Assembly: GCA_963920765.1 (NCBI GenBank)
Contig: OY987246.1
Location: 20,084,868 to 20,148,867 of the forward strand
DNA: 64,000 nt
Source of the DNA: Ulota crispa
Lineage: Eukaryota; Streptophyta; Bryopsida; Orthotrichales; Orthotrichaceae
Reading direction: 5' to 3'
Shown piece after piece: positions 7,883 through 59,023 of this stretch (its first letter is position 1; each line of letters begins with the position of its first letter). A model generated the notes under the pieces. It had not been told where the DNA came from, searched no databases, and worked only from the letters and a program-made list of their open reading frames with translations. Both the position numbers and the translations under genes were made by a program.

Positions 7883-8530
7883 CCGTCTCATTCGGGTGCA
7901 ACCTGTTCGTCCAGTTTGAAGGGCGACAAGTTTGTTAGTGCACATATCTGCAGCGTCCAAACTTGTTCCTCCACGATACTTCACAGAGAAACTGTGAACT
8001 CTGCTAGAAAGTGTGCAAGAATTACGACAATCAGTTTCTCAAAATCCACCATGGTATTACACATAATAAGTGATCAAATTGACAAACCAGAGTTGTAGCA
8101 GAAACAAAGCACGTCCTTTTTCCCGATTTCAAATTTCGTACAACATTGCTTGGAACCATGTCAATCTCTAGGCACCTCAGCCTGAAAATGCAAGCAAAGC
8201 AAGAGCCCTACAGATCAGAAAAATTCGGGTGGATTGAAATAAAAGTACTCGCCAAACGTTAACATTTTCTGCAAAGCTAGCTCATAAAACCCATAATTAC
8301 CCTTCTACCCAGCGTTTGCAACTCCGAACATTCTCCCTCGCACGAGAGATACTCTCTACTCCGTTGTTTTGTGAGAAAGAGTTGGTTCCAAATATCTGGT
8401 ACCCAACCACATTTATTCAGGAAATCTGAAGGACCGGATCACTTAAGATACTCCAGCAAAAACTCCCACAATAAACTGCAAGCGTGACGCTCGTACCGGA
8501 GGTGCAATTCCAAGCGGAGAGACGACGTCT

Positions 8531-11500
8531 TCACATCCTCCGTGATGCCTTGGCCATGACGAACAAGCCCAGCGCTGCCGAAGCGGTGGCAATGCTGCCG
8601 CCATGCTTGCCGCCAAACGCCGCCACGTCCACCGCTGCATCCAGCCAGTTGTCAGCGCGACGTAGACATCCTTCCCCAGAACGGAGTACAGCATTCGCAT
8701 CGGCAATAGAAACGCTTGATAAGCCCATGGCAGCCATTGCACTAAGCCCAGCGTCTCAAACACGCCGTCCAGAAACCACTCGCTGTGCGTGGACGCCACG
8801 ACGCCGTTCACGATAATGGTGCCTCCCATTGTGAAGGGATTGTAGAGCCCTTGCTTGTGCACTTCAGAAATTCCGATCACCTCCACCGCCACTGATCCAT
8901 CAGCCCACATTCTGTCGCCCACGATCACGTCCTGAGCGCGCTTGTAAGTGAGCGTACCTGCCGAACCTGCAGCCCAAGTAAAAGCATGTTCAAGTGGTGA
9001 GCAATGCAATGTTCTCTTAAAAGACACGCGTGAACGCTCCTACAAAATATTAGGCAAAGCACGAAGAGAAAGAGTCATGGCGAATTCTGATTCTAATGTA
9101 CAGTAAAGTGAGCTGCAGGACCAAGTGAACTCTTTTGAAAAAGAGTTCGGGATATGTTATTCTTTTCGGTAAGGTTTACAGGTGCTTTGCAGGACAGATG
9201 AAACCTCAAACACACTATACATGTAAAGACGACAAGAATTGTTTCAGTTCACGTTGCTGTTATTTCAATTTTACAATGCAATTGAGGTTTCGCAGATACT
9301 AGAACCTCATAATAGGTAAATTGGGCCAAAGTGGACATTTTGGGACTTCTGGTCACCGCAAACCGAGCTCCAGCATTTTTTTGTAGGAATTTCTGAGGGA
9401 AAAAATCTTAGTGGCTTAGATTGAATCTGATACTTTTGAATATGGTTTGAGGTAACTATCTGGGTTTGAGGTGGAGTACAAAATGGTACCTTTGTTTTTC
9501 CCAATTTACCGAATATGACGTTCTAGGCAAACCGCGTTACAGAGGTGGTGGTGGACAAGATATTGGCATACCTGCTGAGACGGGGACGAAGTGGAGAGCT
9601 GTCAGCTCAAGCATCCTGCTCTCGGCTGCACGGTCTGACACGTCGCCAGCTACTGGTTTCACTGTGAATTGAACAAAGTTCGCAGAAGCCACAGCATCAC
9701 GATGTCCGAAGGCAAACACGTCCTCGTATACAAGGCTTCCATCAAGGCCTCTCACAGCTACCTGCACGTTAATTGTGCACAACATTACGTCTTAAAAACA
9801 TTGCACAAACATTTTATCAATGACAAATGTGGAACTAGGCGCATCCCACATCAGACTCGATCGTCGGCAGGTTTGGTATCGGTTCAGATTGAGTGGTCTT
9901 AAGTATGCAAAGGTTGGTTAACTAGTATTTGGGTTCAGAACTCCACTTTCCCTGTCCAATTTCAACGCTCTATTTTGAAGAGAGTAGGCACTTAGGACAT
10001 GCGACATGGTACAATCATAGTTTGAACCGCCCCTCGGCTTTCCAGAACTTGTAGAAATTTGAGCACGGTCAGAAAACACTAGCAGATTCATAGACGAGGT
10101 GCAGCAGCACTGACCTTGTCACCCAACATTAAATCGAACATCCGCTTCACTCCACCGCTTGCAAGAGAGATTGTGGCATCACCTGCACGCATTTTTGGCA
10201 GATATAATTGGTAAGAATATAATCAAAACCAGCAGAATGTATATCATAAAAGCATTTTACTGGCTGTGACAAATACTAAAACCAAATTTACAGTGATGGG
10301 ATTGACTCAAACTTTATTTCAGACGCTGCAATGGATTGGGTATTGAAATGGTAAAACAGGGTTAGAAATGGACCTGGGAAGCATCCATCGTTTGCACACG
10401 CTCCACACAAGCATTGTTCATAATCACCCGTGCATGCAGTCCCACAGGTTCCACAGTTGAATAAATCACTGTTCAAATCGACATCAGTTCCATTGCACGT
10501 CATTATTTTCGTGCCGCAGAAGAGACTCAAACAACCCCCGCCGCTACACTGGGTTCGGTTCTGGGTTGCGCAAACGTTCCCGCAGCTGCCGCAGTTGTTA
10601 AGATCCTGATTCAAATTAAGGCATTCGCCATTGCAGATGCCATAGCGGGTTTGGGTACTCAAATCCACGCACCGGCCTGCGCACTTGGTGAACCCGGAGT
10701 TGCAAGCCAAGTCACACTGGCCAGCAACGCACACAATCGTGCCGTTCTGTCCTCCGGACAGGCCTCCGGTGCACACTGTCCCACAGCTTCCACAGTTGGA
10801 GACATCGGCAGCCACGTCAACACACTTGCCACTGCACTTGGCGGTGCCAGCTTGGCACTTCAGGTCACACTTGCCACCGACGCGCACAGCCACAGTGCCG
10901 TTCCCTCCCCCAGGGCACACAGTCCCACAGCTCCCACAGTTGCTCACATCGCTTGCTAGCTTTACGCACGCCTTGTTGCATTGCTTGTACCCGTACTTGC
11001 ACTCCTTGCAAGCGCCTTGCACACAGAAAGCCACAAAGATGGCAGGGGCCGGGCAAACGTGCTTGCACTCTCCGCAGTTGTTCTTATCCGATAGAAAGTT
11101 GACCTCGCAGCGGTTGTGAGTCTTGCCATACCAGTCGCACCACCCGTGCTTCTCGTCGCACGCGAACGAGCACTTGCCCTTCTTGCGCTCGTGGTGTGCG
11201 GTCCGCCCTCGCACTTCGCCTCGCACTCGCCGCAGTTGAATGTGTCGCTCCACACATTCGTCTTGCATTTGCGGTCCTTGCTGCATGTCGCCCACCCCGG
11301 CGAACACTTCGACGCCCCTGCAACACTTGCACGTGCAATCAGCTCAGATCTATACCGTTCCAATTTGTGGACTATTCCACAACTCTAGGAATGAAGTCTC
11401 ATCAGTTTGCAGCAACCACCATTTCACACATTCTCTATGCATGTCTACGTTGCTAGCGAGAGCTTTGCACAATCGCCTCGTATCCAAACGTCAGGGAATC

Positions 11501-11676
11501 GTTGTAGCTGTGCTGGGACTCTCTCGTTCGGACCGCTCAGACATCCATGGCAACAGCTCGACACACACCAGTTTGGGACACAGGAGCGGGTGCAGAAGAG
11601 ATTGCTTACCAACGTCAGCTGTTACTATGGCGCTGATTACGAGCACAACCACGAGCGAGATGAGACGAGAGGCCAT
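8531..11676 (-). pseudogene. STIG1-Hog gene A, damaged copy
   Basis: Same five-exon plan as gene B: exon 1 11610-11676 (signal peptide MASRLISLVVVLVISAIVTA), exon 2 10374-11317 (STIG1-like Cys modules), exon 3 10115-10182, exon 4 9572-9761, exon 5 8531-8966. Splice sites are kept. Compared with gene B, exon 2 has a 4-base deletion near 11195 just after the GGPHTTS residues, and exon 5 has a 1-base deletion near 8655 after KDVYVAL, so neither exon reads through in one frame. The Hint signature residues are still present (GCFPGD, LTALHFVPVS, GLYNPFTMGGTII). Exon 4 keeps four residues (PVAG region) missing from gene B. A 220-bp MITE (9303-9522) sits in intron 4. Probably a recent pseudogene; assembly errors are a weaker alternative. 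Confidence 0.85.
9303..9522. mobile_element. 4-bp-TSD MITE in intron 4 of gene A
   Basis: 220 bp with ends AACCTCATAATAGGTAAA / TTTACCGAATATGACGTT and target duplication CTAG (9299-9302, 9523-9526). Genes B and C have no insertion at the matching sites near 25765 and 40090. Confidence 0.92.
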
Positions 11677-13993: not shown

Positions 13994-14371
13994 AAAAGAA
14001 AAAATATAAAAAATAGGCTTGACAATGGGTTGTATTTCAAAAACAATCTTGACAATTCAGAAATATTGAAAATAGGCCTCATCCGGGTACTGACTCTGGA
14101 GTTTTTGAAGTTGATTTCTTTCAATTCCCAAACTGGTTAGTCAAGGAACTTTTTTAGTTATTTTATCTATATCATATTATAAATATTGAAAAATTAGATT
14201 TTCGATTGGCTTTTCAGCCAATATTTACAAATTGCAAATAATTTTTTCTCATTTCAACCGGCTAGCTTTGAACTAGTTGTTGGATCTTCTTGGACCACCT
14301 CATCATATATAAAAAATAGGCCTTGCAACTAAGGTGACCAAAATTTTGTGCATGTTTATATATGGGAAATT

Positions 14372-14766
14372 GGGAGTTGATATGAGCACACTTGGGGTTT
14401 GATATATGCCCACAAGGAGAGGGGTAAATTTTAGATATTTATCATCAATAAGCTGAATTTGGAAAGCTCAAATTTAGATTTGGATTTAGAGGCCTTGATT
14501 TAGTCTAGAACCACAATGGAGGTTACAATTAAACTACGCCCATTGGAAAGCTTAATTTTTTCTAGAAACAAGGGCAAACAAGTTAAGCTTTCCATTGGGC
14601 GTAGTTCAATTGTAACCTCCATTGTGGTTCTAGACTAAATCAAGGCCTCTAAATCCAAATCTAAATTTGAACTTTCTAAATTCAGCTTGTTGATGGAAAA
14701 TATCTAAAATTTACCCCTCTCCTTATGGGCATATATCAAACCCCAAGTGTGCTCATATCAATTCCC
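14372..14766. mobile_element. hAT-like foldback at the palindrome centre
   Basis: Ends GGGAGTTGATATGAGCACAC and complement, and an interior like 6046-6447. Flanking duplications cannot be judged because the flanks are themselves palindromic. Confidence 0.65.
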
Positions 14767-14966
14767 AATTTCCCATATATAAACATGCACAAAATTTTGG
14801 TCACCTTAGTTGCAAGGCCTATTTTTTATATATGATGAGGCAGTCCAAGAAGAACCAACAGTTAGTTCAAAGCTAGTTGGTTGAAATGAGAAAAAATTAT
14901 TTGCAATTTGTAAATATTGGCTGAAAAGCCGATTGAAAATCTAATTTTTCAATATTTTTAATATGA

Positions 14967-25019: not shown

Positions 25020-27948
25020 TCACGCCCTCCTTGATGCCTTGGCCATGACGAACAAGCCCAGCGCAGCCGAAGCGGTGGCAATGCTGCCGCCGTGCTTGAT
25101 GCCAAGCGCCGACACGTCCACCGCTGCATCCACCCAGCGGTACAGCGGGATATAGACATCTTTCCCCAGAACGGAGTACAGCATCCGCACCGGCAGTAGA
25201 ACCGCCTGATATGCACACGGCAGCCACTCCACCACGCCCAGCGTCTCAAACACGCCGTCCAGAAACCACTCGCTGTGCGTGGACACCACCACGCCATTCA
25301 CGATGATGGTGCCTCCCATCGTGAAGGGATTGTACAGCCCTTGCTTGTGCACTTTGGAAATGCCTGTCACCTCCACCGCCACTGGTCCGTCTGCCCACAT
25401 TCTGTCGCCCACGACCACGTCACGAGCGCGCTTGTAAGTGAGCGATCCCGCCGAACCTACAACCCAAGCGAAATGCATGTTAAAGTAGCGAGCATTACTA
25501 TGTTCAGTCAGCAGGAGGCCCTAGGAGGCATGTCTTCAAAAAAAGTGTGAAGGAAAATACTAACTTTAGGGTGAGCAAAACAGTGGGCGGCAGTACCAAC
25601 TCTTTCGAAGTATATGAAGTGCATTTCGATAAGGTTTACGGTTGCTTTGCAAGACAGATGGATCTTCACAATATACATAGAAAGACAACACGAATTGTTT
25701 CAGTTCACGATGCCGTTATTTCATTCATGATTTACTATGCGATTGAGTTTTGGCAGATATTAGGCAGACTGCGTTACAGAGGTGGCCGTGGACAAGATAT
25801 TGACATACCTGCTGAGACGGGAACGAAGTGGAGAGCTGTGAGGTCGAGCGTCCTGCTCTCGGCTGCACGGTCTGACACTAACTTCACTGTGAGTTGAACA
25901 AAGCTCGCAGAAGCCAAAGCATCTCGGTGTCCGAAAGCATACACATCCTCGTATGCAAGGCTTCCATCGCGACCCCTCACAGCTACCTACGCATCAGTTG
26001 TTCACAACATTGCTTACTCCAAACATCTCATAATTAGCTGTCCATTCCGATATATAGCACATGTGAGACTAGGAGCATTCCAAATCGCACGCCTCTTTAC
26101 AGAGAAGTTGATGGGTTTGGTTTCAGTACTACAAACTGTCGAGTAAGCTTTGAAACACGGAGATTGATTAGTACTTAATTAGGCTCTAGACCCCGCTTTC
26201 CTTAGTCAATTTAGGCTTACTACTTTGAAGAGATCAGTACTAGGCACTTGGCCATGCGATATGGTACGTAGCCAGAATTGCGGGTCCCTCAACTTTTCAG
26301 AACTTGTAGAAATTTGAGCACGGTCAGAAAACACTAGCAGATTCATAGACGAGGTGCAGCAGCACTGACCTTGTCACCCAACATTAGATCGAACATCCGC
26401 TTCACTCCACCGCTTGCAAGAGTGATTGTGGCATCACCTGCATGCATTTTTGGCAGATATAATCGGTAAGAGAAAAATCAAAACCAGCTGGACATATGTC
26501 AGAAAAGCATTCCTTGGCAGTGACTAAGATTGACTCAGACTTCCTTTCAGGCGCTGCAATAGATTGGGTACTGAAAGGGTAAAACAAGATTATTTAGAAA
26601 CGGACCTGGGAAGCATCCATCGTCCTGACACGCTCCACAAAAGCATTGTTGGGTATCACCCGTACACACATTCCCACAGGTTCCACAGTTGTTATTATCA
26701 AAGAACACATCGACATCATTTCCATTGCAGGTCATATTAGACGTGCCGCAGAGGGGATTAAAACAACCCCCGCCGCTACACGTGATAAAGTTCTGGGTTG
26801 TGCAATCATTCCCACAGCTGCCGCAGTTCATAAGATCCTGATTCAAATTCAGGCACTTGCCATTGCAGATGCCATAGCGGGTTTGGATACTCAAGTCCAC
26901 GCACTTGCCAGCGCACTTGGTGAACCCGGAATTACAAACAATGTCACACTGACCAGCGACGCACACAACCGTGGTGCCGTTTGCTGCTCCAGGGCACACT
27001 GTCCCACAGCTTCCACAGTTGGTGATATCAGTAGCCACGTCAACACACTTGCCATTGCACTTAGCAAAGCCAGCTTGGCATTTCAGGTCACACTTGCCAC
27101 CGACGCACACAGCTATGGTGCCGTTCCCTCCCCCAGGGCACACTGTCCCACAACTTCCACAGTTTGTGACATCGCTTGCAACCTTCACGCACGCTTTGCT
27201 GCATTGCTTGTACCCGTACTTGCACTCCTTCTTACAAGCGCCTTGCACACAGGAAGCCACGAAGTTGGCAGGGGCCGGGCAAACGTGCTTGCACTCTCCG
27301 CAGTTGTTCTTGTCCGTGAGAAAGTTGACCTCGCAGCCGTTGTGAGGCTTGCCATCGCAGTCGCACCACCCGTGCTTCTCGTCGCACTCGTACGAGCACT
27401 TGCCCTTCTTGCACCTGCTCGTGGTGTGCGGTCCGCCCTCGCACTTCGCCTCGCACTCGCCGCAGTTGAATGTGTCGCTCCACACGTTCGTCTTGCATGT
27501 CTTGCCTTTGATGCACGTCTCAAACCCCGGCGAACAACTTGACGCATCTGCCACATTTGCACATGCTTGCATTCAGCCCAGATCTATACCGTTCCAATTC
27601 GTTCCGACAGCAGACTACCAAGGCTCAGATGCAATTCCACTAACTCTACGAATGAAGTCTCATCAGTTTGCAGCACACATTTGCAATGCAGATCTACGTT
27701 GCTTTTCCAGCTAGTAAGTACGAGCTTTGCACGATCGCCTCGTATCCAAACGTCAAGGAATCGTTCTAGCTGCTGGGACTCTCTCGTTCGGACCGCTCAG
27801 ACATTCATGCATGGCAACAGCTTGAGATCTACACACCAGTTTGGGACACAGGATCGAGCGGGTGCAGAAGAGATTGCTTACCAACGTCAGCTGTTGCTAG
27901 GGCGCTGATCACGAGCACAACCACGAGCGCGATGAAACGAGAGGCCAT
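25020..27948 (-). CDS. STIG1-Hog gene B: secreted Cys-rich protein with Hedgehog-type Hint domain, apparently intact
   Basis: Five exons: 27882-27948, 26606-27547, 26370-26437, 25809-25986, 25020-25456; all introns GT/AG, phases 1, 1, 0, 1; 1692 nt, 563 residues. Residues 1-20 are a signal peptide (MASRFIALVVVLVISALATA). Residues 24-333 hold six repeated Cys modules of the STIG1 type (NCG-x-C-x3-C; CxGKCVD). The Hint domain begins at Cys334 (GCFPGDATITLASGG), runs through YEDVYAFGHRDA, has T409-x-x-H412 (LTALHFVPVS) and continues with GLYNPFTMGGTIIVNGV (458-474), like the Hedgehog autoprocessing domain, and ends with a small hydrophobic stretch and basic SRRA. In Hedgehog, Cys and TxxH drive self-cleavage before Cys. 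By analogy the STIG1 part would be released outside the cell; that is inference. Start chosen because the signal peptide is conserved in all three copies. No frame break found. Confidence 0.88.
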
Positions 27949-32845: not shown

Positions 32846-33187
32846 GCCCCCCACCCCTTATCCCTGTGCCTCCTATCCTCGTACCCCCTATCCCGATGCC
32901 TCCTATCCTCGTATCCCCTATCCCCGTGCCTCCTATCCTTGTATCCCCTATCCCCGTGCCTCCTATCCTTGTGTCCCCGATCCCCGTAGCCTTGTCCCTA
33001 TCCGCGTGTCCCCTATCCCCGTGCCCCTATCCCCGTGTCCCTATCCCCGTGTCCCTATCCCCGTGTCCCTATCCCCGTGCCCCCTATCCTTGTGTCCCTA
33101 TCCTTGTGCCCCCTTTCCCCGTGCCCCCTATCCCCGTGCCCCCTTATCCCCGTGCCCCCTTATCCTCGTGCCCCCTTATCCCCGTGC
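32846..33187. repeat. C-rich minisatellite, G-quadruplex-prone on the minus strand
   Basis: About 20 irregular units of 13-20 bases around CCCCTATCCCCGTGT. The minus strand is GGGGATAGGGGCACGGGG-like. Open frames across it are repeat by-products. Confidence 0.9.
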
Positions 33188-33400
33188 CCTTTTTTGGCCG
33201 AGAGAAAGTTGTGGTGCAATTGCTAGTGATGATGCCACTACCAGTGATCTATTGTTAATGTTTGATGAAGCCATAGGTGACTTTCTAGTGATGGTGCAAC
33301 TGCTAGTGACTTGTTGTTAACATCTAGTGAAGCCATAGGTGATTTTACTTTACTACATTTATAACTTTCTGATCCCAGTCATGCCCGACCCTATCCTAGT

Positions 33401-39319: not shown

Positions 39320-42191
39320 TCACGCCCTCCTAGATGCCTTGGCTATGACGAACAAACCCAGAGCTGCCCAAGCGGTGGCGATGCTGCCGCCGTGCTTGCC
39401 GCCAAATGCCGCCGCGTCCATTGCTGCATCCAGCCAGCGGTACAGCGCGATGTATGCATCTGTCCCAAGCACGGAGTACAGCGTCCTCACCGACAGCAGA
39501 AACGCCTGATATGCGCACGGCAGCCACGGCACCATGCCCAGCGCTTTGAACACGCCGTCCAGAAACCAGTCGCTGTGCGTGGACGCCACCACGCCGTTCA
39601 CGATGATGCTGCCTCCCAAAGTGAAGGGATGGTAGAGCCCTTGCTTGTGCACTTCGGAAATGCCGGTCACCTCCACCTCCACTGATCCGTCGGCCCACAT
39701 TCTATCACCCACGATCACGTCATGAGCGCGCTTGTAAGTGAGCGGTCCCGCCAAACCTGCAGCCCAAGCAAAGGCATGTTCAAGTGGTGAGCAGTGCAAT
39801 GTTCTCTTAAAAGGACACGTATGAACGCTGCTACGAAATATTCGGCAGAGTCCCAAGAGAAAGAGTCACGGCGAATTCTGATTCTAATGTACAGTACAGT
39901 GAGCTGCAGGACCAAGTGAACTCTTTCGAAGAAGAGTTCGGGATATGTACTGCTTTTCGGTAAGGTATACAGTTGCTTTGCAGGACAGATGAAACCTCAA
40001 ACACACTATACATGTAAGACGACAAGAATTGTTTCAGTTCACGTTCTCGTTATTTCAATTTTATAATGCAATTGAGTTATCGCAGATACTACGCAAACCG
40101 CGTTACAGAGGTGGTGGTGGACAAGATATTGGCATACCTGCTGAGACGGGAACGAAGTGGAGAGCTGTAAGCTCAAGCGTCCTGCTCTCGGCTGCACGTT
40201 CTGACACTTCGCCAGCTACTGGTTTCACTGTGAATTGAACAAAGCTCGCTGAAGCCACAGCATCACGATGTCCGAAGGCATACACGTCCTCATACACAAG
40301 GCTTCCATCACGGCCCCTCACAGCTACCTGCACGATAATAGTTCACAACATTACGTCTTAAAAACATCGTACAAATATTTTATCAATGACAAATGTGGCA
40401 CTAGGTGCATCCCACATCAAACTCGATCGTCGGCAGGTTTGGTATGGGTTCAGATCGAGTGGTCTCAAGTACGTGAAGGTTGGTTAACTAGTATTTGAGC
40501 TCAGAACACCACTTTCCCTGTCCAATTTCAACGCTCTATTCTGAAGAGAGTAGGCACTTGGGACATGCAACATGGTACAGACTACAGAGAGTGAACCGCC
40601 CCTTGGCTTTTTAGAAACTCTAGAGATTTGAACACGACCACAATAAACTAGTAGATTCATAGACAAGGTGCAGCACTGACCTTGTCACCCAACATTAGGT
40701 CGAACATCCGCTTCACTCCACCGCTCCACCGCTTGCGAGAGATTGTGGCATCACCTGCACGCATTTTTGGCAGATATAATCGTTACAAGAAAATCAAAAC
40801 CAGCAGAATGTATATCAGAAAAGCATTTACTGGCTGTTACAAATACTACAACCAGATTTCCAGTGATGGGATTGACTCAAACTTTCTTTCAGACGCTGCA
40901 TTAAATTGGGTACTGAAATGGTAAAACAGGATTAGAAATGGACCTGGGAAGCATCCACCCGCACACGTTCCACAGAAGCATTGTTGAGAAACACCCGTGC
41001 ACACAGTCCCACAGGTTCCACAGTTGAACAAATCACTGTTCACATCGACATCAGTTCCATTGCAGGTCATTATTTGCGGGTCGCAGATAATCAAACAATC
41101 CCCGCCACTACACATTAGGGTTCGGTTCTGGGTTGCGCAAACATTCCCGCAGGTGCCGCAGTTCAGAAGATCCGTAATCAAATTAACGCACGCGCCATTG
41201 CAGATGCCATAGCGGGTTTGAGTACTCAAGTCCACGCACTTGCCAGCACACTTGGTGAACCCAGAGTAGCAAGCCAGGTCACACTGGCCAGCGACGCACA
41301 CACCGTGCCGTTCTGTCGTCCGGAGCACGATGTCCCACAACTGCCGCAGTTGGTGGCATCAGTAGTCACGTCAACAATTGCCATTGCACTTGGCGAAGCC
41401 AGATTGGCATATCAAGTCACACTGGCCACCGACGCACACAGCCGTGGTGCCATTCCCTCCTCTGGGGCACACTGTCCCGCAGCTCCCGTAGTTGCCCACA
41501 TCGCTTGCCACCTTCACGCACGCGTTGTTGCATTGCTTGTACCCGTACTTGCACTCCTTCTTGCAATCGCCTTTCACACAAGAAGCCACGTAGTTGGCAG
41601 GGGCCGGGCAAACGCGCTTGCACACTCCGCAGTTGTTCTTGTCCGTTAGAAAGTTAACCTCGCAGCCGTTGTGAGTCTTGCCATCGCAGTCGCACCACCC
41701 GTGCTTCTCGTCGCACTCGAACGAGCACTTCCCTTTCTTGCACCTGCTCGTGGTGTGCGGTCCGCCCTCGCACTTCGCCTCGCACTTCCCACAGTTGAAT
41801 GTGTCGCTCCACACATTCGTCTTGCATTTGCGGTCCTTGCTGCACGTCGCAAACCCCGGCGAACAGTTCGACGCATCTGCCACATTTGCACATGCATGCA
41901 TTCAGCTCAGTTTGCAGCAACAGCCGTTTCACACATACTCAATGCAGATCTACGTTGCTCTCCCAGCTAGCGAGAGCTTTGCACGGTCGATTGCCTATGA
42001 ATCCAAACGTCAGAGAATCATTCTAGCTGCTGGGACTCTTGTTCGGACCGCTCAGACATGCATGGCAACAGCTTGAGACACACCAGCTTGGGACACAGGA
42101 GCGGGTGCAGAAGAGATTGCTTACCAACGTCAGCTGTTACTAGGGCGCTGATCACGAGCACAACCACGAGCGCGATGAGTGGAGATGCCAT
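39320..42191 (-). pseudogene. STIG1-Hog gene C, probably damaged copy
   Basis: Exons 42125-42191, 40944-41876, 40681-40754, 40138-40327, 39320-39756 match gene B in order, splice sites and phase. Exon 5 is open to the SRRA-stop. Exon 2 has a 2-base loss near 41375 and a 4-base loss near 41305. Together they restore the frame, but an in-frame TGA appears between them, right after CNGNC. One module also has NYGSC in place of NCGSC. Exon 3 has an 8-base duplication offset by a 2-base loss, giving ISRKRWSGGVKR in place of ISLASGGVKR right after the Hint start. GCFPGD and LTALHFVPVS are kept. An unannotated splice could bypass the stop, but the simplest reading is early decay. Confidence 0.82.
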
Positions 42192-46108: not shown

Positions 46109-46789
46109 TCACCTTTTTCGCTCGGTTTTCCATCTGTACACCGGCTGTTGGGAAGGGTTTTCCAGCTCACTCGATCGAAGTTTTCGCTTCCTGCCCTTCC
46201 CACTCAACTGCTTCTGCATCGCCACCGCAGAAGCCATATCCTTGAGCTTCACAGCTCGCTCACTCCGCTCCTGCATCTCCTTGGTCAACTTTTTCCGAAC
46301 CCTAGGCACTTGAAGGGGCTCCGAGGGCCGGTCCACCACTCTCTCCCGCGTGTGCGCAACTTCATCATCATCCTCCACGAAGAACACGTGCTTATTTGTG
46401 TTTGCGCTCAAGGGAAGGACGGACGACAGCAACCTCTCGACTTTCTTTAGCTCACTCTGCGCTTTGCTCACCAAGTACCCGGCATCCTGTGACCTCAACA
46501 GCTTCAGCTCCTCCTCCGTGTACACTTTGGCGCCAGTCTCGCCTCGGTGAATCCCTTTCACGGTCTTGGAGTTGATCATCTTGAAGAAGAACTCATCGGG
46601 ATTCCGATTCGCCGCTTTCTCTTTCAACTTCTGCAGGTTCTGTTGCTTCTTCTGGAAATCCTTCGCTCGCAAAACATAGTCCTTGTGCTTCTCCAGCAGC
46701 CCGAAGCGCGCTCGGAACGCCGGCTGCGACCGCTCCTTGTGAGCGCGCCCGCCCGCCGCGGCCTTGCTCGCTTTGCGTAGCGACGACAT
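46109..46789 (-). CDS. UTP11: UTP11, small-subunit processome protein
   Basis: 226 residues in a single exon, a usual length for plant UTP11. The protein is a nucleolar component of the U3 snoRNP/SSU processome that processes 18S rRNA precursors. Family blocks are visible in order: MSSLRKA, AHKERSQPAFRARFGLLEKH, KDYVLRAKDFQKK, LKEKAANRNPDEFFFKMI, KTVKGIHRG, YTEEELKLLRSQDAGYL, ELKKVERL, NKHVFFVEDDDE, then a basic C-terminus (KGRKRKLR, WKTERKR). An in-frame ATG at 46813 would add MRFSRTGA; I prefer the one at 46789 because known family members begin MSSL. The frame is intact and composition is more GC-rich than the flanks. It is the clearest housekeeping gene here. Neighbours do not suggest co-regulation. 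Confidence 0.95.
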   Translation of the reverse strand: MSSLRKASKAAAGGRAHKERSQPAFRARFGLLEKHKDYVLRAKDFQKKQQNLQKLKEKAANRNPDEFFFKMINSKTVKGIHRGETGAKVYTEEELKLLRSQDAGYLVSKAQSELKKVERLLSSVLPLSANTNKHVFFVEDDDEVAHTRERVVDRPSEPLQVPRVRKKLTKEMQERSERAVKLKDMASAVAMQKQLSGKGRKRKLRSSELENPSQQPVYRWKTERKR

Positions 46790-47133
46790 GGCGCCCGTCC
46801 GACTGAAACGCACTTTGCCTCAAGCTCTGGAGAAAAGAGGCATCAGCAAACCATCGAATCGAGTTTCTCACGACACGATCACAACCCTAATCCTCTCGAC
46901 GCACCGACCCAGCAAAAAAGAACTGAAGTAGCAAGGGTCGGTACACTCTATGTCCCACGTCCCACGTCCTAAGTCCCAAGTCCCAAGTCCGAAATTCCAC
47001 GTCCCAAGTTGCACATTCCAAGTCTCAGTTTATATTGAATATTTGAGTATTTTGATAAGTTGAGCTAAGAAAAGCGGTATTTAGCATTCATATTTAGTCC
47101 TACATCTTGATTCACTTAGAAATGGTTAATGTC
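46790..47133. other. UTP11 upstream region with a degenerate 7-bp repeat
   Basis: The 5' flank up to about 46930, then 46948-47035 with irregular repeats of CCCAAGT/CCCACGT. Confidence 0.6.
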
Positions 47134-50868: not shown

Positions 50869-51110
50869 AATTGGATGAAAATTGGATGAAAATTGGATGA
50901 GAATTGGATGAGAATTGGATGAGAATTGGATGAGAATTGGATGAGAATTGGATGAGAATTGGATGAGAATTGGATGAGAATTGGATGAGAATTGGATGAG
51001 AATTGGATGAGAATTGGATGAGAATTGGATGAGAATTGGATGAGAATTGGATGAGAATTGGATGAGAATTGGATGAGAATTGGATGAGAATTGGATGAGA
51101 ATTGGATGAA
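50869..51110. repeat. 11-bp tandem array, 22 units
   Basis: Unit AATTGGATGAG repeated about 22 times with almost no variation (GAAA variants at the left edge). Two overlapping minus-strand open frames (SNSHPILIQF repeats) are by-products of the array. Confidence 0.95.
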
Positions 51111-57583: not shown

Positions 57584-59023
57584 ATGAGTTCCTCATTCTC
57601 CACGAGAATGCTCGTCATCATCGCCTGTGCATTCGTGCTGGGCGCACTCCACACTGCCCATTCTGCCGATCCCGACCCCTTGCAGGACTTCTGCGTGGCG
57701 GATATGTCACCGACAGCGCCCCTTGTGAACGGGTTCCCATGCAAGCCTCGGGAGAACGTCACCGCCCAGGACTTCACCCACACCGGCCTTCGTAAACCTG
57801 GTGCGCATTTCTCTGCATGGATTGCTCTCAATCCGCTCACGTCAGAGCCACTCCTTCATTTGTAACATATCACAATTGCACTTGATTTTGTGTCCTTTTT
57901 GAAGATATGATGCTAACCCTCTCTTAGGCGACCTCAAGCTCATCCCAGTTTTCGTCTCACGTTTCCCAACAACGCACACATCTGTCTAGATCACTTGCTT
58001 GAACAGGATTATTTGGCACGCGGCGAATATTAAGGTTTATAGAGAATGTCAGACTTGCAGAGAAACGAACCAGATAATTTCACTGTCACAGGAAATCTGC
58101 TGGGAGACTCTGGTGATTCAAACGCCACGTGTATCACAGATGTAGCTTAAGATGGAGAACGTTGAAACACCATATGTAAATCATTTAAGGTAAGAGCACC
58201 CATTACCAACAGTATACCTACCTAATGGCGTCACTTTCTAAACATGGCAATCAATGTAGAACTTAAATCTACGTACATCATAGATAGCTTATCATTTTGA
58301 TTACCATCAATAGGCTATCTATGATGCACCTAAATACAAGTTCTAGAATGATAGCCCTGTGTAGACACAGGATGACGCCATTGAGTACAATGTTGGTAGT
58401 GGGTGCTCCTAGCTTAATATAAACAGTTCGGTACGCTAACTTTTTAGCAAGCTACGCTACGTTATGAAAGATGGGTGTGATGCTGAATTGGAACAAATGA
58501 TTTTACTTAAACATCCTCTGTGGTTGTACTAGTTTTGAAATTTGTGACTTGTGCTGCAGCATACGATGTGTCGGTGTCCGTGACGGGAGCGATCGTGACG
58601 CTGGCGACGGTGAACGAGTTCCCGGGGCTGAACACGATGGGCGTGTCGCACGCGAGGCTGGACTTCGCGGTGGGCGGCGTGGTGCCACTGCACACTCACC
58701 CGCTGGCGACGGAGACGCTGTTCGTGCTGAAGGGGTCGGTGTACACGGGGTTCGTCAGCGCCGACAACGTGCTGTACGCGTCCACTCTGCACAAGGGTGA
58801 CTTCACCATCTTCCCTCGCGCCCTCTCGCACTTCCAGCTCAACGTCGGCAACGAGAGCGCCATCACCTTCAACACTCTCACGTCCCAGAACCCCGGATTC
58901 CTCGTCACCGCCAACCAGATCTTCGTGCCCAACATCACCAGCGAAGTTATTGAGAAGTCCTTCGGCGTGAATGCCTCCACCGTGCAGCAGTTGACGGACT
59001 CCATTCCTCGCTACTGGGGTTAA
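57584..59023 (+). CDS. GLP: Germin-like protein (cupin), two exons
   Basis: Exon 1 57584-57800 and exon 2 58560-59023 join at GT/AG with phase 1 (RKP|AYDV), giving 226 residues, normal for germin-like proteins. These are secreted apoplastic Mn-binding cupins, some with superoxide dismutase or oxalate oxidase activity. Residues 1-28 are a signal peptide; the mature start DPDPLQDFCVAD is typical. C37 and C53 fit the conserved disulfide. Germin box 1 gives H117-x-H119 and E124 (LHTHPLATE) and box 2 gives H163 (FPRALSHFQLN), the four metal ligands. NVT at 58 and NES and NIT further on are possible N-glycosylation sites. The C-terminus PRYWG replaces the common short tail. Exon 2 is GC-rich compared with its surroundings. 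The 759-base intron holds a MITE at 58187-58417. Frame is intact; probably functional. Confidence 0.94.
58187..58417. mobile_element. GAGCACCCAT-ended MITE in the germin-like intron
   Basis: Ends GGTAAGAGCACCCATTACCA / TGGTAGTGGGTGCTCCTAGC with TTA/TTAA context; internal palindrome CATCATAGATAGC / GCTATCTATGATG. Same family as 60662-60984. Confidence 0.75.

Follow-up and report, generated by a model that had tools for sequence, protein, structure and literature searches.

A moss gene family joining STIG1-type cysteine modules to a Hedgehog-class Hint domain: candidate self-cleaving precursors in Ulota crispa

The locus described here raises the question of whether a moss may make a secreted cysteine-rich protein by the self-cutting chemistry of animal Hedgehog. 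It lies in a 64,000-nucleotide stretch of the Ulota crispa genome, hereafter the window, where five GT-AG exons on the minus strand, between positions 25020 and 27948, join into one 1692-nt frame that encodes 563 aa followed by a stop (copy B; Table 1). GT-AG borders are present at all four introns, whose phases are 1/1/0/1. When the exons were rejoined, the five-exon model, the 563-residue product and the residues C334 and H412 given in a preliminary description of this DNA were reproduced exactly, and the hydropathy of exon 1 agrees with the signal peptide proposed there.

Table 1. Features of the 64-kb window, in window coordinates.
Feature	Position	Strand	Remarks
Copy A	8530..11676	-	Five-exon gene as copy B, frameshifts in exons 2 and 5; low end estimated from copy B
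Inverted repeat	14172-14966		390-nt arms, 95% complementary, 15 nt apart
Copy B, exon 5	25020..25456	-	Hint end GLYNPFTMGGTIIVNGV (STH where Hedgehog has SCY), P-x-R motif (LLPVR, 505-509), weakly hydrophobic C-terminal tail, stop
Copy B, exon 4	25809..25986	-	Hint, FGHRD (H379, at the Hedgehog D303/D46 place) and LTALHF (T409, H412)
Copy B, exon 3	26370..26437	-	Hint, GDATITLASGGVKRMFDLMLGDK
Copy B, exon 2	26606..27547	-	Six STIG1-type modules, with 51 Cys over residues 23-333, then the Hint start G333-C334-F-P
Copy B, exon 1	27882..27948	-	Start codon and signal peptide MASRFIALVVVLVISALATADV; hydropathy 2.26 over 19 residues; donor G|GTAAGC
C-rich array	32854-33190		14/15-bp unit
Copy C	39320..42191	-	Five-exon gene as copy B, frame breaks in exon 2, exon 3 6 nt longer; ends approximate
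Utp11 gene	46112-46819	-
11-bp array	50869-51109		22 copies
Cupin gene	58511-59020	+	Germin-like by our own reading

A Pfam search at E values up to 10 returned only Hint and Stig1 on copy B, and no N-terminal Hedge domain. Hint (PF01079) covers residues 328-481 with E 5.2e-26 and 92 bits (gathering cut-off 29.7), and Stig1 (PF04885) matches in six stretches with E 6.3e-17 and 62.3 bits (gathering cut-off 24.1), both thus lying above their gathering scores. The earlier assignment of a Hedgehog-class Hint with intact Cys1 (C334) and TxxH (T409 to H412) is borne out by these results, and that of plant STIG1 modules holds in part: PF04885 recognizes the modules, but the same array matches the NCBIfam Cys-rich model MXAN_6577 (NF041328) with a higher score (123.8 bits, E 4.8e-36). 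In the PDB, the sequence of copy B matched four Hedgehog chains, from fly and human, with E between 1.3e-7 and 2.5e-6, plus a ferredoxin at chance level (E 0.63), and a 15-row profile of the family retrieved the same four chains (E 1.2e-25 to 2.3e-21) together with a V-type ATP synthase chain, weak and likewise at chance level (E 0.17). An intein proper is unlikely, as PF01079 and PF04885 are the sole Pfam matches and no intein model appeared at E up to 10. Bacterial contamination was rejected on account of the spliced genes, the 25.6-Mb contig and the Utp11 and cupin genes nearby. Scanning the window for Rfam families and tRNAs gave no matches.

The STIG1-Hint fusion is no artefact. When the moss's own genome (274.8 Mb in 157 contigs) was searched with PF01079, at least eight places were found, seven of them over the cut-off, and the counts are lower bounds. 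STIG1-Hog genes occur in at least six co-linear copies, A, B and C in the window and D, E and F (loci L010, L012 and L013) at 17.32-17.36 Mb of the same contig, about 2.7 Mb off, and the splice sites are retained in all six. The number of NC..C motifs in the array varies, with six in B, seven in F and nine in the longer array of D. Two more Hog genes, G (L009) and H (L014), have a plant-type N-terminal domain, and the intron after CFPG is also found in G.

Outside Ulota, a search with the Hint half yielded 15 relatives among 6878 candidates, the closest being proteins of Ceratodon, in keeping with a moss host. Nine are land-plant proteins (three from Ceratodon, one each from Physcomitrium, Selaginella and Marchantia, and three from Adiantum); the remaining six are a red algal protein (P0015), three of bacterial type (P0012-P0014) and two whose contigs are short (P0005, P0009). 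The predicted Ceratodon purpureus protein KC19_11G148500 (P0001, 429 aa) likewise consists of a signal peptide, STIG1-type modules, Hint and a tail, although it has fewer modules than copy B, and its Stig1 match, beside an equally weak CPL1-like match, falls under the Pfam cut-off (18.8 versus 24.1 bits, E 0.0024). Its array nevertheless aligns with that of copy B at 144 bits, above all of 500 shuffles in which every C and G was kept fixed (maximum 92.4). A chance join of two genes was rejected because of the six co-linear copies and of P0001, which has both parts. A false fusion, in which exon 2 and exons 3-5 would come from separate transcripts, is extremely improbable, given that Cys1 itself sits at the end of exon 2, that exon order and splice sites are retained in the six copies, and that P0001 carries both parts in a single predicted protein; the copies and P0001 thereby go part of the way to meeting the objection of separate transcripts raised in the preliminary description.

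The fusion may have arisen once, with exchange between genes, or twice. The co-linearity of the first three modules in copy B, P0001 and a second Ceratodon array (P0017, which has no Hint in its precomputed Pfam line) argues for one origin of the STIG1-Hogs, the identities being 44.6-47.4% (44.6% for copy B and P0001). In the Hint tree, the six Ulota copies group together (99/100) and P0001 falls outside; a test on 22 rows spoke mildly against placing all STIG1-Hogs, that of Ceratodon among them, in one clade (AU p 0.0275). For this test the fly and red algal sequences had been dropped as long branches from the 24-row tree, and it was made after inspection of the first tree. A profile search (14 matches, with the 7994 candidates sharing most words being scored) brought up no other STIG1-Hint protein, and PF04885 and PF01079 never occurred together in the precomputed Pfam labels among the matches listed (in one case, the best 120 of 620). 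Because P0001 is itself missed by those labels, other fusions may be missed too.

The next question is whether the copies have been maintained as proteins. Across Hint exons 3-5, each of the 15 pairings of the six copies gives a dN/dS of 0.21-0.35 (copy A being cut at its frameshift), and across the first modules of the STIG1 block each of the 10 pairings of five copies gives 0.06-0.36 (copy A being omitted). In the latter block, all 16 Cys columns are invariant, against 49 of the 80 other columns. Since dN/dS is low in both halves, both evolved as protein for most of the history of the family, and purifying selection on both halves is supported. Protein-level evolution may have ended in the damaged copies, which number four of the six: the frame is broken in A, C and E, the last having an internal stop, and D has TTG where the other copies have ATG. 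Copy F (589 aa) is open throughout and is the second open copy besides B. Some of the breaks are possibly assembly errors.

This damage, together with a Tyr at the position of Hedgehog D303 in copy F and the in-frame stops of the other Hog genes (one in the N-terminal part of G and two in the last exon of H), would fit a family that is decaying in the moss, with copy B as an uninterrupted but unexpressed relic. Such a decay is improbable, however, as dN/dS is far under 1 in every pair computed, B and F are open, the splice sites are retained and part of the breaks may stem from the assembly.

The residues expected to perform the chemistry were compared in a MAFFT alignment of 33 rows, 2 animal and 31 non-animal. 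The His of TxxH is present in 31/31 non-animal rows, all of which have either Thr or Ser at the Thr position. At the D46/D303 column, the place of the general base of Hedgehog, the two animal rows have Asp and 29 of the 31 non-animal rows have His, including copy B, where H379 replaces the Asp; the two remaining rows are copy F, with its Tyr, and the fragment P0142, which shows a His but was left uncounted because the alignment is unreliable there. The Cys of Hedgehog motif J is missing in all 31 non-animal rows, which have T, S, A, V or E instead. As active-site changes do occur, copy F being the example, the Hint might be an inactive fold or a partner-binding domain in a protein that remains whole; the conservation of Cys1, of T/S and of H from bacterial-type proteins to moss makes this quite improbable.

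The His at position 303 has an experimental precedent. A fly Hint in which D303 was changed to His retains structure and activity, PDB 6TYY being that variant, and its activity with coprostanol and epicoprostanol rises more than 200-fold and more than 300-fold, respectively, according to PMC9163320; a wider range of sterols is accepted by the same variant, as stated in PMC8529194. The His at 303 in plant and bacterial-type Hogs would therefore be the natural counterpart of the engineered fly variant. The link between the two is our own and not that of PMC9163320. Because the natural residue matches an existing fly experiment, clear predictions exist.

We consider copy B, with a probability of about 0.68, to be a secreted Hog-type self-cleaving precursor that would free its Cys-rich part before C334 by means of water or a sterol-like alcohol. 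This reading draws on the architecture, the open frames of B and F, the conserved catalytic residues, the purifying selection on both halves, and the P-x-R stretch and tail discussed below; the fly D303H data, with fold and activity retained and more sterols accepted, are also counted in its favour. Against it stand the damage in four of the six copies, the Tyr at 303 in the open copy F, the weakly hydrophobic tail of copy B, the low tail hydropathy of six of the 15 relatives, and the tail comparisons given below, which do not demonstrate a sterol recognition region. In the proposed mechanism, the signal peptide would direct the precursor into the ER, the Hint would fold, and T409 and H412 would drive an N-to-S acyl shift at G333-C334, as suggested by the conservation of these residues in the relatives and by the known chemistry of Hedgehog. 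H379 would take the general-base role, and resolution of the thioester by the nucleophile would free the STIG1-type array of 311 residues; a helical tail, a feature that is weak in copy B, would perhaps keep the Hint part near the membrane. A membrane sterol or other alcohol acting as the nucleophile would give a lipid-tagged array and water a plain one, both being compatible with the sequence. By analogy with STIG1 and GRI, the freed array would probably work extracellularly, as a signal or as a wall or matrix protein.

The region after the Hint bears on the choice of nucleophile. A P-x-R motif follows the domain in 14 of the 15 relatives and in copy B, with a second conserved stretch behind it, and the C-terminal stretch has a hydropathy above 1.6 in nine of the 15 relatives and below 1.6 in six; that of copy B reaches at best 1.38 over 18 residues. 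Replacing H374, F377 or R381, which lie in the first helix of the SRR of human SHH, by alanine lowers cellular cholesterolysis, and P379 is invariant (PMC7242414; PMC7906309). The likeness of P-x-R to this region is suggestive only. A profile comparison with fly and human Hedgehog aligns up to the point where the Hint ends (E 1.4e-22 for one target), the tails alone match Hedgehog over 7 columns at P-x-R only, which is not significant (E 0.076, probability 0.7%), and P-x-R is not in register with Hedgehog in the 33-row MAFFT alignment.

Cleavage by water only, a sub-case of the precursor reading in which an unmodified STIG1 array would be freed with no lipid, is favoured by these tail, profile and MAFFT comparisons, which did not demonstrate homology to the animal SRR, and by the absence of the motif J Cys. 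Conversely, the P-x-R stretch persists from bacterial-type proteins to moss, a degree of conservation that seems beyond the needs of a simple hydrolase, and the fly His303 is active with sterol-class alcohols; cleavage by water only is thus plausible at somewhat less than even odds. Self-cleavage as such is likely and a sterol-type adduct is doubtful. The fullest form of the precursor reading is put forward as less likely than not: mosses would make a sterol-tagged extracellular Cys-rich signal through Hedgehog-type chemistry, plant sterols being accepted by a natural His303 site, and in plants the Hog module would have been joined to varied secreted cargoes (STIG1 arrays, the plant-type domain and Pro-rich stretches), perhaps to STIG1 on more than one occasion.

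A 2008 paper described Hog proteins from Physcomitrium patens and Selaginella in which an upstream region is conserved, and already envisaged an ancestral secreted protein, possibly bearing a sterol (PMC2362128). Hogs in moss and Selaginella are thus known; what appears new here is the STIG1 fusion, of which no report was found among the open-licence papers listed by the searches, and what is new is the His at 303 in nearly all aligned non-animal relatives. The other full-length land-plant Hogs found (Physcomitrium P0004, Ceratodon P0002 and P0003, Selaginella P0006, Adiantum P0007, P0008 and P0011, Marchantia P0010) share the Hint, P-x-R and His303 with copy B but have a plant-specific N-terminal domain of the TPALxWG type in place of the STIG1 modules. 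It is this domain that STIG1 replaces, and not, as the preliminary description supposed, the Hedgehog ligand. Animal Hedgehog (fly Hh and human SHH) has in common with copy B the Hint by sequence, Cys1, TxxH and the G-x-PLT region, and differs from it by Asp at 303, the motif J Cys, a long SRR loop and the Hedge ligand domain. Caenorhabditis elegans Warthog and Groundhog, Glomus GmGIN1 and choanoflagellate Hoglet carry other N-terminal domains on the Hog domain, according to the descriptions in PMC2362128 and PMC1636047.

Flowering-plant STIG1 and GRI have PF04885-type modules in common with copy B. Both act extracellularly through receptor kinases, and GRI is cut by the metacaspase AtMC9 (PMC13157962). 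A self-cutting STIG1-type precursor, if true, would be a release route unlike the metacaspase cutting of GRI, and the sequences suggest that some plants may produce a secreted signal by Hedgehog's self-cutting chemistry. The moss precursor bears on ligand release without a separate protease, and offers a tractable plant in which to ask whether the chemistry works outside animals, and with which nucleophile.

Other Hog proteins met in these searches differ in what precedes or follows the Hint. Five come from Selaginella: in P0136 and P0140 the signal peptide is followed almost directly by Cys1, and in P0137-P0139 the two are separated by a Pro-rich stretch alone. When bacterial and archaeal genomes were scanned, relatives of the plant-type Hog, of the bacterial type, turned up at two loci (L015, L016) in two Geminicoccus genomes, and P0012-P0014, which are kin of the Geminicoccus Hogs, have a hydrophobic C-terminal end. 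In the protein of the red alga Erythrolobus (P0015), the Hint is fused with an aspzincin metallo-endopeptidase domain.
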